The notes under the pieces are model-generated. The model was not told where the DNA came from. It ran no database searches and saw only the letters and a list, made by a program, of their open reading frames with translations. From Thermoplasmatales archaeon SW_10_69_26 (GTDB taxonomy: Archaea > Thermoplasmatota > SW-10-69-26), in NCBI GenBank assembly GCA_003009755.1, contig PXUB01000030.1, forward strand, positions 1-64,000: a stretch of 64,000 nucleotides of DNA. Direction: 5' to 3'. Below, one piece after another: positions 9,461-49,375 of the stretch. How positions within the stretch are numbered: the first letter of the stretch is position 1; each line of letters opens with the position of its first letter. Made by a program: the position numbers and the translations under genes.

Positions 9461-9802
9461 ATCCCCCGGTGCGGGGAGTAGTCCCCGTTCTGTTGCCCGA
9501 TCGCGAGGATCGGACGGCGGCATTCGTCTGTGCGTCCCACTTGCCCCTCGCCGCGGACACCTCGACGGGGCGGTTCGGACTTGCTCCGGGGAGCCCGGCA
9601 CGTTTCATCCGTTCCACCGTCGTCGTCGGGGGCTTTCCCCCGTCATCCCGTGACGGTGGCGGTGTCGTTTCTGCTCCGGCTCGCGAGGTCTCCCCCACCC
9701 GGCCTTGTCGCCGGTCCCGGTCCTCGGTGAGCGGGGACCTTCCTCGGTTCGGACCGCGGCGAAGCCGCGGGAACCGTTGGCCGCCCTCCCGCTCCGGGGG
9801 AT
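9461..9802 (-). ncRNA. rnpB: RNase P RNA, archaeal type
   Basis: The catalytic RNA that trims tRNA 5' ends. On the minus strand the conserved blocks appear in order: GAGGAAGGTCCCC (9745-9733), GAGCAAGTCCGAACC-like in the specificity domain, GACGAATGCCGCC (9528-9516), and ACAGAA (9493-9488). Helix P4 forms between GTCCCC (9738-9733) and GGGGAC (9486-9481). The closing helix P1 pairs ATCCCCCGG (9802-9794) with CCGGGGGAT (9469-9461). The length of 342 nt is normal. Long hairpins such as CCGCGGCgaaGCCGCGG near 9757-9773 match P3-like and specificity-domain stems. Ends are set by P1 and may be off by a few bases. Confidence 0.9.
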
Positions 9803-20061: not shown

Positions 20062-20755
20062 GCGAGCATCCGACCGTGCGGTATCCCCCGGCCAAGGATG
20101 CTCGCAGTTCGGGCGGATCGGAGATCCGCCTTCCTTCGAGGGTCGGACCCGTGTGGTCGCCGCCGGGTCAGCGACCCTCGAAGTTCGCCAGAATCGTGTG
20201 CTCGGTGTCGGTTCGGGCTTCTGCGAGCATCGGACCGCACGGTGGGCACCGGTCAACGATGCTCGCAGTTCGCACGGCCTCGGCGGTGGGCGTGGTCGGC
20301 CGTGCTCTCCCGAGAGACCGCCTTCTGCGGACGCGAGGTGCCCGAGGGGCTGCGGTCTCTCGGGATTCGTACCCCCGGCTACATCCTATCCTCTGTGGAC
20401 GATGGCTGTGAGGATAGGATGTACGCGAGCATCCGACCGTGTGGTATCCCCCGGCCAAGGATGCTCGCAGTTCGCACGAACGCCCGGGCAAGTGGCACCC
20501 GGCGTTCGTGCTCTCCTCAGCTCCAGCTGTCGCTCTGTCGACCTGCTGGAGCTGAGGACGGTGGTTACCGGTGGTCGCTCGGGGTCTTCACATCAGGCCT
20601 CTGCGAGCATCGGACCGCACGGTGGGCACCGGTCAACGATGCTCGCAGTTCGTACGAACGTCGGCTCTCTCTCCACGAGGTCTGCAGAGCAGACGTTCGT
20701 ACTCCCGCTACATCCTATCCTCTGTGAGGCTGTGGCTGTGAGGATAGGATGTAGC
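20062..20755. repeat. modular stem-loop array downstream of tRNA-Arg(GCG)
   Basis: About 700 bp made almost wholly of perfect stem-loops. A 'hub' stem with arms GAGCATC/GATGCTC occurs four times (20062-20105, 20222-20267, 20425-20468, 20602-20647), each followed by AGTTCG. After the last three comes a hairpin starting CACG or TACG (for example CACGAACGCC/GGCGTTCGTG), then CTC, then a second hairpin: CCCGAGAGACCGC, CCTCAGCTCCAGC (20514-20558) or GCTACATCCTATCCTC (20707-20755). The last of these, 16 bp of perfect pairing, abuts the tRNA 3' end. An extra copy of it lies at 20378-20423. Hub copies 2 and 4 are identical over about 50 bp. Homologous units lie at 26052-26271 and 49140-49375. Confidence 0.85.
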
Positions 20756-25836: not shown

Positions 25837-26051
25837 GCTCTCGGTCGGGCCGCCGTCGACACCCGACCCGGGCCGGGGCCCCAGGGGCCAGGGTCTGTCT
25901 TGCCCTCTGTTCTCATCGGCGACGGAGCGAGGGACACCGTCGCGCCGAGGCCACGCTGAGGCCGGATCGTCCACGGTCAGATGTTCGGGACGTCCACGCA
26001 GCGATCCCCGCGTGCGCTCGAGCCCGCTCGGCGAAGGAGACGTTCTTCCAT

Positions 26052-26271
26052 CGAGGGTTGGACCCAAGCGATGGGAGCCGGGTCAACAACCCTCGAAGTT
26101 CGCCCGAACCGGGCGCTAGATGTCGGTTCGGGCTCCCGCGAGCGTCAGACCGTGTGGTATCCTCCGGCCAAGGATGCTCGCAGCTCGCACGAACGCCCGG
26201 GCAAGTGGCGCCGGGCGTTCGTGCTCTCCTCAGCTCCAGCTGTCGCTCTGTCGACCTGCTGGAGCTGAGGA
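26052..26271. repeat. modular stem-loop array downstream of tRNA-Arg(CCG)
   Basis: Stem-loops in order: TCGAGGGTTG/CAACCCTCGA, then GTTCG, GCCCGAACC/GGTTCGGGC, the hub GCGAGCGTC/GATGCTCGC (26138-26181), AGCTCG, CACGAACGCCCGG/CCGGGCGTTCGTG, CTC, and CCTCAGCTCCAGC/GCTGGAGCTGAGG (26227-26271). The last ends one base before the tRNA discriminator. Bases 26138-26271 align without gaps to 20425-20558 (134 bp, about seven differences). Relative to array 1 the first stem changes TCG...CGA to TTG...CAA, keeping the pair. Confidence 0.85.
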
Positions 26272-47800: not shown

Positions 47801-48844
47801 AGTGCTTCTCGGGGTGTCTCAGTAACCCCCTCTACGCCGCTGCCCCCAACTGCCCCGATCGTTTGAGCCGCTCGTTCGGCCGCGGCAGCATCTCCACAAT
47901 GCCTCGCAACGCTTTGTTGAGGGCCCGCCCGAGGAACGGGCGGTGGTTGAAGCGGAATGTGAACGCGTCCAAGTACGGCTGCACGTTCCAGTCCTCCACG
48001 TAGGCGTGCACCCTATACAGCACGCGTTTGAGGTTGCTGAACACCGTGTGACTCCACGGCAGCACATCGTGCATCTGCTCGCCCTCCTCGCGATCGGGCT
48101 GGCGAACCTCGCGCTCGTAGGCCGCAAGCCCGTTGTAGCCGTCCCCGTTGTCCGTCCACTAACATCGAGCCTTCCTGCACGCGGACTCGCACGGTGGGGG
48201 CCAGGTTCTCGCCGCCGGCGCCGGGCACGCATTGCAGGTGCAGGTTGCCGGCTTCCTCGTCCTTGTTGTCGACGAGGGCGACCACGCACTGCTTGCTGGT
48301 GCCCCGGCCTGAGGAATCGTCCGGGCGCTTGCCGCCCACGTAGGTTTCATCGGCTTCCCCCACGCCGTCTAACGATCGCTGCTGGGCGCGTCTCAGGATG
48401 CGGTAGATCTTCTGGCGGATGTTGTGCGCGGTCTCCGCGTGCACGCCCAACGTGCGGGCGAGCTCGGGCTCCGTGATGCCCTTCTTGGTTTTGATGACGT
48501 GGTAGATGGCCAGGAACCAGGTCTGTAGGTCGAGTTTGGTGTCCTGGAGGATCGTGCCCGCGGTCACGCTGGTTTGCTTGCGGCACGCGTAGCACTCGAA
48601 CACGTGGCGGGTCTGGATGAGGCCCCAGGGCTCGTCCTCGCCGCAATCCGGGCACGTGAAGCCGTCCTTGCCCCAGCGGTGCTCGCGGAGGTATTGCCAG
48701 CAGTCCTCCTCGGTGGGGTGTGTGTTGACGAATTCGGTCAGGCTGGGCAACGCGTCATCGGTCATGCTCCCGAAGATGGGCGATGGAGGGGTGTGGGTTC
48801 AGTCCGGGGTGGCTCGGTACCACTGACACAGGCCGAGAAGCACT
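47801..48844 (-). mobile_element. insertion sequence, IS1595 (ISXO2-like) family, with target duplication
   Basis: A 1,044-bp element. The left end starts AGTGCTTCTCGG then TGTCTCAGT; the right end, reverse complemented, starts AGTGCTTCTCGG then TGTGTCAGT, giving terminal inverted repeats of about 23 bp with three or four mismatches. The flanks carry the direct repeat TTCGACGTT at 47792-47800 and 48845-48853, matching the 8-bp duplications of this family to within a base. The duplication is still exact, so the insertion is recent. The single gene inside is frameshifted. Confidence 0.9.
47832..48765 (-). pseudogene. ISXO2-like transposase, frameshifted
   Basis: The first frame (48765 down to about 48160) carries a zinc ribbon (CPDCGEDEP, then CYACRKQ), a helix-turn-helix (ELARTLGVHAETAHNIRQKI) and the first catalytic block (GEADETYVGGKRP). 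After EGSML the sequence continues one base out of frame: TDNGDGYNGLAAYERE, HDVLPWSHTVFSNLKRVLYR and AYLDAFTFRFNHR-like ending at 47832. The break is at TTAG near 48160, not in a homopolymer, so it is more likely a true mutation. The intact protein would be about 310 residues. Confidence 0.85.
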
Positions 48845-48964
48845 TTCGACGTTTTACCGTCGAAGGTTTGCTCGGGAGACCTTGAATGCGATTAGCCACG
48901 CCGCGCCGCCTCACATCAAACTCTTATACGCCTCCCCCATATATCTGGCCTGCGCGGAAGCGTT

Positions 48965-49037
48965 GCGGGTGTAGTATAGTCTGGTAGTACACGGCCTTGC
49001 CATGGCCGTTGCGCGTGTTCAAATCACGCCACCCGCA
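48965..49037 (+). tRNA. tRNA-Gly, anticodon GCC
   Basis: Cloverleaf: acceptor GCGGGTG/CACCCGC, D arm with GTCTGGTAGTAC, anticodon loop TTGCCAT on stem CGGCC/GGCCG, T arm GCGTG-TTCAAAT-CACGC, discriminator A at 49037. No intron. TATA-like CTTATAC (48923-48929) and CATATATC (48938-48945) lie upstream. Its 3' end is repeated downstream (see 49028-49328). Confidence 0.92.
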
Positions 49038-49328
49038 TCCTCTCTCGCGTTGATTCCTCAGGGACTCCCATCGCCAGGCTCGGCTGAGGGGCCGCTGGCG
49101 GTGTCGCGCTGCATCGGAATCCCTCCGAGGGAGCGTCACGTGCGGGTGGCGTGAGCGGACGGCCGGCCGCAGCCACCGCCGAGGGCGTGCGAATCGAGAG
49201 CATCCGTAGCCGACGCGACCGTGCGGCTCGATGCTCTCGAGTGGCCAGATCTGCGATCTGGTCGAATCTCAGGGCCGACGGCGGAAATCGCCCGTCGGTC
49301 CTGAAGCCACCCGCATCCTCTCTCGCGT
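49028..49328. repeat. duplicated tRNA-Gly 3' ends (possible attachment sites)
   Basis: The last 10 bases of tRNA-Gly plus 13 bases of flank (49028-49050) recur exactly at 49306-49328. The 14 bases TCACGCCACCCGCA (49024-49037) also occur inverted at 49140-49153 (TGCGGGTGGCGTGA). Such copies are what integrating elements leave when they use a tRNA 3' end as attachment site. No integrase gene is present between them; the spacer is 255 bp. Confidence 0.7.
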
Positions 49329-49375
49329 CGAGTCCTCGGTTCGCACGGCCTTCGGCCGTGCTCTCGTGAGGGGGG
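49140..49375. repeat. third stem-loop array, downstream of tRNA-Gly
   Basis: Contains the hub CGAGAGCATC/GATGCTCTCG (49195-49239) with the same GACCGTGCGG loop core as at 20062. After AGT come GGCCAGATC-TGC-GATCTGGTC and CCGACGG/CCGTCGG, then GGTTCG and CACGGCC-TTC-GGCCGTG followed by CTC (49346-49365). The last matches the linker and hairpin order of array 1. So all three tRNA genes in the window are followed by the same kind of array. Confidence 0.7.

Follow-up and report, generated by a model that had tools for sequence, protein, structure and literature searches.

The window, that is, the whole 64,000-nt stretch of DNA that was analysed, comes from contig C30 of G000, an archaeal genome of 2.8 Mb that is 95% complete. 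It carries a tRNA-Gly (GCC) gene on the forward strand at 48964-49040 (ARAGORN), which Rfam places at 48965-49037 with 64.8 bits. At its 3′ end the gene holds the first, functional copy of a tail sequence, which also supplies the first fold-back helix with its 5′ arm. An earlier note on this DNA had reported an exact 23-nt direct repeat of that end 278 bp further on. The repeat, GCCACCCGCATCCTCTCTCGCGT, is indeed present at 49028-49050 and 49306-49328 with a spacing of 278, and it widens to 32 nt at 94% identity (49028-49059 versus 49306-49337, direct repeat D1). Tail copy 1, at 49028-49059 on the forward strand, comprises the tRNA-Gly end and its flank. Just upstream of the tRNA, at 48013-48765 on the reverse strand, lies an ISXO2-like (IS1595) transposase that appears truncated (81 of 153 positions of the DDE domain), and its DNA is 87-88% identical to C25:22672 and C32:101764. 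The archaeal RNase P RNA gene is found at 9467-9796 on the reverse strand (Rfam, 139.8 bits). Scanning the contigs of genomes with the aminotransferase that neighbours the locus returned distant genomes only and no array information.

The array behind the tRNA consists of modules that all lie on the forward strand. Hub A (GATTCCTCAGGGACTCCC...GGAATCCC) occupies 49048-49126; a DNA search of the same genome also finds it at C47:53651, C43:7548, C42:19653 and elsewhere. It is followed at 49141-49154 by an inverted copy of the tRNA-Gly tail (TGCGGGTGGCGTGA; inverted repeat I3), which pairs with 49024-49037 at 14 of 14 positions; the earlier note had placed this copy at 49140-49153, one base off. 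The next element, at 49157-49190, is a linker hairpin of the HpB type with CAGCCACCGCCGAGG, then CGAA, recognised from its sequence and from a 77% match to the tRNA-Gly(CCC) array at C2:33158. Hub B, at 49194-49240, is a two-part hairpin that has a bulge of 2 nt and a loop containing ACC, defined by covariation and by covariance model R1, which recovers it at 49196-49238 with an E-value of 4.8e-8. The sequence and predicted fold further give a linker hairpin GGCCAGATC..GATCTGGTC, then GAA (49243-49263), a long hairpin TCAGGGCCGACGG..CCGTCGGTCCTGA (49269-49304) that precedes tail copy 2 (the direct copy, 49306-49337), and a terminal hairpin GCACGGCC..GGCCGTGC (49343-49361). The hub and linker hairpins previously claimed between and after the tails are therefore present. 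Hub A itself seems to form the core of a larger conserved module (TCCCRTCGCCAG..CTGACGGTGTCGCKCTGC..CTCCTTGTCAG), with sites at C48:19875, C9:20364, C42:19653, C43:7548, C47:53651 and 49048-49126 of the window. This longer module lies partly at tRNAs without tail copies and may be a separate RNA.

When the genome is searched with the tRNA-Gly locus and the tRNA-Arg(GCG) array, matches appear at many unlinked places. In the array after tRNA-Arg(GCG), at 20062-20755 on the reverse strand, hub B occurs five times and alternates with linker hairpins. The one after tRNA-Arg(CCG), at 26045-26271 on the reverse strand, starts at the tRNA 3′ end and has two hub B copies; its first 138 nt are 96% identical to part of the tRNA-Arg(GCG) array. 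The tRNA genes of G000 were listed with Rfam and ARAGORN, and the DNA examined comprises the stretches around the search matches and around the tRNAs. Own-tail copies of at least 11 nt, counted by a fixed rule up to 250 nt downstream if inverted and up to 400 nt if direct, occur at 21 of 42 tRNA genes, versus a mean of 0.45 and a maximum of 3 when tails are swapped among tRNAs. Tail copies are in excess of chance expectation. By eye, a hairpin array stands directly downstream of about 28 of 43 tRNA genes. A T-run within 700 nt, which would correspond to the U-tract of an archaeal intrinsic terminator, follows only 3 of 27 array-bearing tRNAs, and most arrays, to judge from their sequence, end without such a tract. 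At about 10 tRNAs in G000, the acceptor end is immediately followed by the motif ACTTCTC, which often belongs to the first stem and is a possible 3′-end signal.

The arrays are not confined to tRNA genes. One lies behind the archaeal SRP RNA (Rfam), and at least twenty protein genes, about 20 in all and mostly housekeeping, bear arrays on their 3′ side. They include the genes for an M48 peptidase, Spt5, TFB, cytochrome oxidase III, ribosomal protein S7, a double-AAA ATPase, a class II aminoacyl-tRNA synthetase, a rhodanese, a 4Fe-4S ferredoxin-like protein, Cdc6, a transketolase-type subunit, a beta-CASP nuclease and others, apparently also ribosomal protein S2 (by eye). In 14 of 20 of these array-bearing protein genes, the coding end or the stop codon makes the first hairpin with an inverted copy, 11-18 nt long, that stands close behind it. 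Among the controls, which are long open frames of the window rather than curated genes, 3 of 87 ORF ends have such a first hairpin. The coding tail also recurs in direct orientation further downstream: 35 and 14 nt of its end at TFB, further copies at the cytochrome oxidase III gene, and at C1:90788 a copy of about 60 nt that comprises tail plus hairpin. Copying of the gene that an array follows is the general rule, of which the tRNA tails are a special case. The beta-CASP nuclease, which belongs to the family of archaeal termination factors, has an array (C41:56441-56727) in which two units of 226 bp are nearly identical and the assembly has a gap.

The protein-gene arrays bear directly on the earlier note's suggestion that the arrays are, or were carried by, small elements that insert at tRNA 3′ ends. 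Spelled out, the arrays would be remnants of elements integrated there by a tyrosine recombinase (or a casposase), with the direct repeats as attL and attR. A direct repeat of the tRNA 3′ end does bound the insert, with 32 nt at 94% identity here and at least 11 nt at 15 tRNAs of G000. Units are bounded by direct tail copies, each beginning in the T loop. A tyrosine recombinase gene (C2:33474) also follows the tRNA-Gly(CCC) array. The proposed search for such an enzyme gave three genes in the genome (C2:33474-33929, C19:59113-59667 and C1:122312-122803), all adjoining tRNA genes (Gly-CCC, Phe and Glu-CTC), of which only Gly-CCC has an array while the other two are array-free; contig C30 carries none. 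No single target sequence common to the arrays was found, each having the tail of its own gene. Own-gene tails, the lack of a shared target and the lack of a nearby tyrosine recombinase leave a tRNA-specific integrating element unsupported, and a recombinase of fixed specificity is disfavoured because the targets are many and unrelated in sequence. Casposons are marked by a Cas1 integrase, terminal inverted repeats and a target duplication of 14-15 bp, and common terminal repeats were not seen among the arrays. Inverted tail copies do not result from conservative site-specific recombination, and many arrays have no direct copy. The arrays at SRP RNA and at many unrelated coding sequences, mostly with copies of their own tails, speak against tRNA 3′ ends as the target. 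Those at protein genes largely refute the recombinase-remnant reading, which is considered very improbable. What survives of it is the gain and loss of whole units at gene 3′ ends; the targeting of tRNAs does not.

Structural conservation was studied in an alignment of 27 copies of the hub B hairpin, with its bulge of 2 nt and its loop containing ACC. Two-sided changes occur in 13 of 15 pairs, and 99.2% of cells pair, compared with 30-37% in slid controls. Since the sequences had been selected by their outer stem, independent evidence comes from the inner pairs alone (columns 11 and 14-18). These inner-stem pairs covary, and the bulge and the ACC loop are kept despite the stem changes. At many tRNAs, the unit has the order inverted T-arm copy, GAACC..GGTTC, hairpin 1, GAG, hairpin 2, GAA and direct tail copy, which gives a cloverleaf of four arms, namely a tail helix, a short GAACC..GGTTC arm and two long hairpins. 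Under a strict test (an outer stem of at least 7 bp plus three branches), 11 of 15 units have a four-arm cloverleaf as their minimum-energy fold, versus 5% of shuffles, with z-scores of about -4 to -8. Because the units were cut between inverted and direct copies, the outer stem is expected in this test and the three inner branches are not. In the cloverleaf sequence alignment, compensatory changes affect 16 of 23 consensus pairs. In tRNAs with a direct copy, the inverted copy is predicted to pair either with the gene tail or with the direct copy, in two mutually exclusive folds. Mismatches within stems on the gene-sense strand of G000 comprise 16 G:T and 4 A:C, versus 23:24 in the coding control; over all genomes the G:T excess has a p-value of 0.02-0.05 depending on the stem threshold. 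This excess points, modestly, to selection on sense RNA. Searched against Rfam 15, the arrays have no match above the gathering score, the matches being tRNA, SRP RNA and RNase P only.

These structures can be set against a purely mutational origin, in which replication or repair would switch strands at the ends of highly transcribed genes and leave fold-back copies, tandem duplications and, through quasi-palindrome correction, perfect stems. The inverted and direct copies are gene-specific and stand at unrelated, mostly housekeeping genes, as such a process would have it, and template switching is known to homogenise the arms of inverted repeats (PMC8604942). It does not account for a 2-nt bulge and an ACC loop that are kept in the hub while the stems change, for the G:T excess on the sense strand, or for one cloverleaf plan in separate families. 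A by-product of this kind is judged improbable.

Across the phylum, hub B is a feature of one genome. Model R1 finds about 37 sense copies in G000 and, among 388 other genomes, one weak match in G305 (E 0.0035), which was rejected as being at chance level over 389 genomes. The hub pattern has 0 matches in viral contigs, and 23 viral-contig matches of the linker-hairpin pattern were judged to be chance, since model R1 reaches at best 22 bits at those loci; the one that was read through, L196, resembles phage coding DNA. The sister genus (G001) has an own-tail copy at 1 of 29 tRNAs under the fixed rule. Confinement of the hub to G000 and the nearly array-free sister genus mean that empty sites, which the earlier note had proposed to look for, exist at tRNAs. 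The arrays are dispensable, as the sister genus does without them.

The plan of the arrays reaches further than their sequences. G004, from another family, and G006, from a third, have direct or inverted tail copies and hairpins at about 6-7 tRNAs each, a count that includes some short matches that are not arrays, such as a neighbouring tRNA at G006:C20. In G004, tRNA-Gly(GCC) has a 19-nt tail copy at +139. Most of the array-bearing isoacceptors of G004 and G006 bear arrays in G000 as well. Model R2, a cloverleaf covariance model made from G000 sequences only, detects the G004 arrays at tRNA-Leu(CAA) and tRNA-Leu(GAG) with E-values of 1.4e-6 and 2.6e-6, on the sense strand and directly downstream. 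These two are the only G004 arrays that R2 finds; none is recovered in G006, and the matches in G001 are weak and below the G004 level. The presence of the architecture in other families with differing sequences indicates that the plan predates the species and that the sequences turn over fast. Arrays are both gained and lost. The arrangement is thus conserved among distant relatives, which had been named as evidence against insertion, yet it is accompanied by empty sites. G004 has a module of its own, [GAC]GAGCGA-hairpin-AGCGAA[GTC], in which the stems differ and the internal loop is fixed (L244, L256, L260, L156, L300 and L304); its pattern gives six exact matches in G004 and none in the other genomes of the class.

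Several arrays at contig ends or with runs of N might suggest an assembly or amplification artefact of a short-read genome. The same architecture in the independent assemblies of G004 and G006, the covarying modules and the gene-specific copies at dozens of loci make this hardly credible. A further reading is that of selfish hairpin repeats comparable to mitochondrial double-hairpin elements or GC clusters. They would have spread to gene 3′ ends and duplicated there with no host role, and tails would have been caught in tandem duplications. Modules are common to unlinked arrays and shuffled among them, units are in tandem with gaps and contig ends inside arrays, dialects are specific to lineages, and the sister genus has no arrays. 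Selfish repeats alone leave unexplained the first helix made of the gene's own tail, the mostly identical isoacceptors across families, and the conserved bulge and loops. A retroelement-derived repeat would call for a reverse transcriptase (PF00078), which has no match in the 95% complete genome. Hairpins derived from REP/RAYT or IS200/IS605 would call for a Y1 (HUH) transposase (PF01797), which has no match either; the positive controls of that search are detected. Selfish repeats are considered rather unlikely. Ends of IS1595-type elements appear to abut or lie within hairpin arrays at C47:44640 (L012/L120), C6:160 (L021) and C39:54577 (L031), and look as if the arrays were their insertion targets.

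The reading preferred here, tentatively and at a little below even confidence, takes the arrays for structured RNA 3′ extensions that are transcribed, evolve rapidly, belong to tRNA, SRP RNA and housekeeping protein genes, and are built from the tail of the gene itself. The first helix would usually join the last 11-18 nt of the gene to an inverted copy that follows closely. Many tRNAs have a second, direct tail copy, which could pair with the inverted copy instead and close the four-arm cloverleaf. More hairpin modules would be strung behind and amplified as tandem units. The arrays would be co-transcribed with the gene and may act at RNA 3′ ends in termination, protection or processing. The tail copies fit best with local templated duplication and subsequent tandem amplification rather than with a tail-specific recombinase. 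What the sequences show is the architecture, positions, strand, gene-specific tail copies, covariation and spread across families. Against RNA extensions speak the fold-back helix, which in tRNAs would compete with the T and acceptor stems of the tRNA itself, the modest size of the G:T excess, the hub sequence in 1 of 389 genomes, the lack of a U-tract at the end of most arrays, the recovery by R2 of just two G004 arrays and no G006 array, and the dispensability of the arrays in the sister genus. Much could also be accounted for by selfish repeats or a by-product of replication.

A bolder version extends the RNA extensions to a class-wide archaeal system, in which the gene 3′ end, copied in inverted and direct form, would make a switchable cloverleaf that controls the maturation or stability of tRNAs and housekeeping mRNAs in cis. 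The inverted copy would lock the gene tail (the T/acceptor strand of a tRNA or the stop-codon region) or be titrated by the downstream copy. This version is speculative and rather unlikely. If the arrays are functional, an archaeal class would have a general 3′-end device that acts in cis, and its tRNAs a 3′ extension of a new kind. If they are not, a repeat process copies gene tails repeatedly in both orientations, and its mutational or mobility mechanism can be tested from sequence alone. To our knowledge, no RNA or repeat family builds itself from the 3′ end of whichever gene precedes it, be it tRNA, SRP RNA or mRNA. No description of such arrays was found in the open-access literature. The evidence favours a gene-end RNA module over a tRNA-targeting mobile element, and the module is undescribed as far as Rfam and the open-access literature show.

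Archaeal integrative elements at tRNA genes share the direct repeat of the tRNA 3′ end (PMC8371274). The arrays differ from them in having no integrase near the locus, gene-free units of about 100-300 bp, protein-gene targets and inverted copies. Bacterial hairpin clusters that serve as intrinsic terminators likewise form runs of adjacent hairpins past stop codons (PMC8355165), whereas the arrays have conserved internal loops, a cloverleaf, own-tail pairing into the CDS or tRNA, and no U-tract. In fungal mitochondria, gene-tail duplications by mobile ORFs similarly place a second C-terminal copy behind the host gene (PMC3630166). The fungal case involves a mobile ORF and a diverged tail copy, with 64-81% identity in the duplicated part; in contrast, the arrays have no ORF, their tail copies hardly differ from the gene's own tail, and there is also an inverted one. 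The nearest in kind are the repetitive or double hairpin-forming elements of mitochondria, which are likewise short, dispersed hairpin modules that diverge structurally between related taxa, and for which an RNA intermediate has been suggested in Allomyces (PMC2800124). The arrays share with this class, which is defined by likeness only, the dispersed hairpin repeats and common modules. Unlike the mitochondrial elements (PMC2800124), these archaeal arrays lie at gene 3′ ends. The gene's own tail, in inverted form, often opens the array, and arrays behind tRNAs form a conserved cloverleaf. Own-tail inverted copying together with a cloverleaf belongs to the arrays and to none of the mitochondrial, fungal and archaeal-integration relatives compared.
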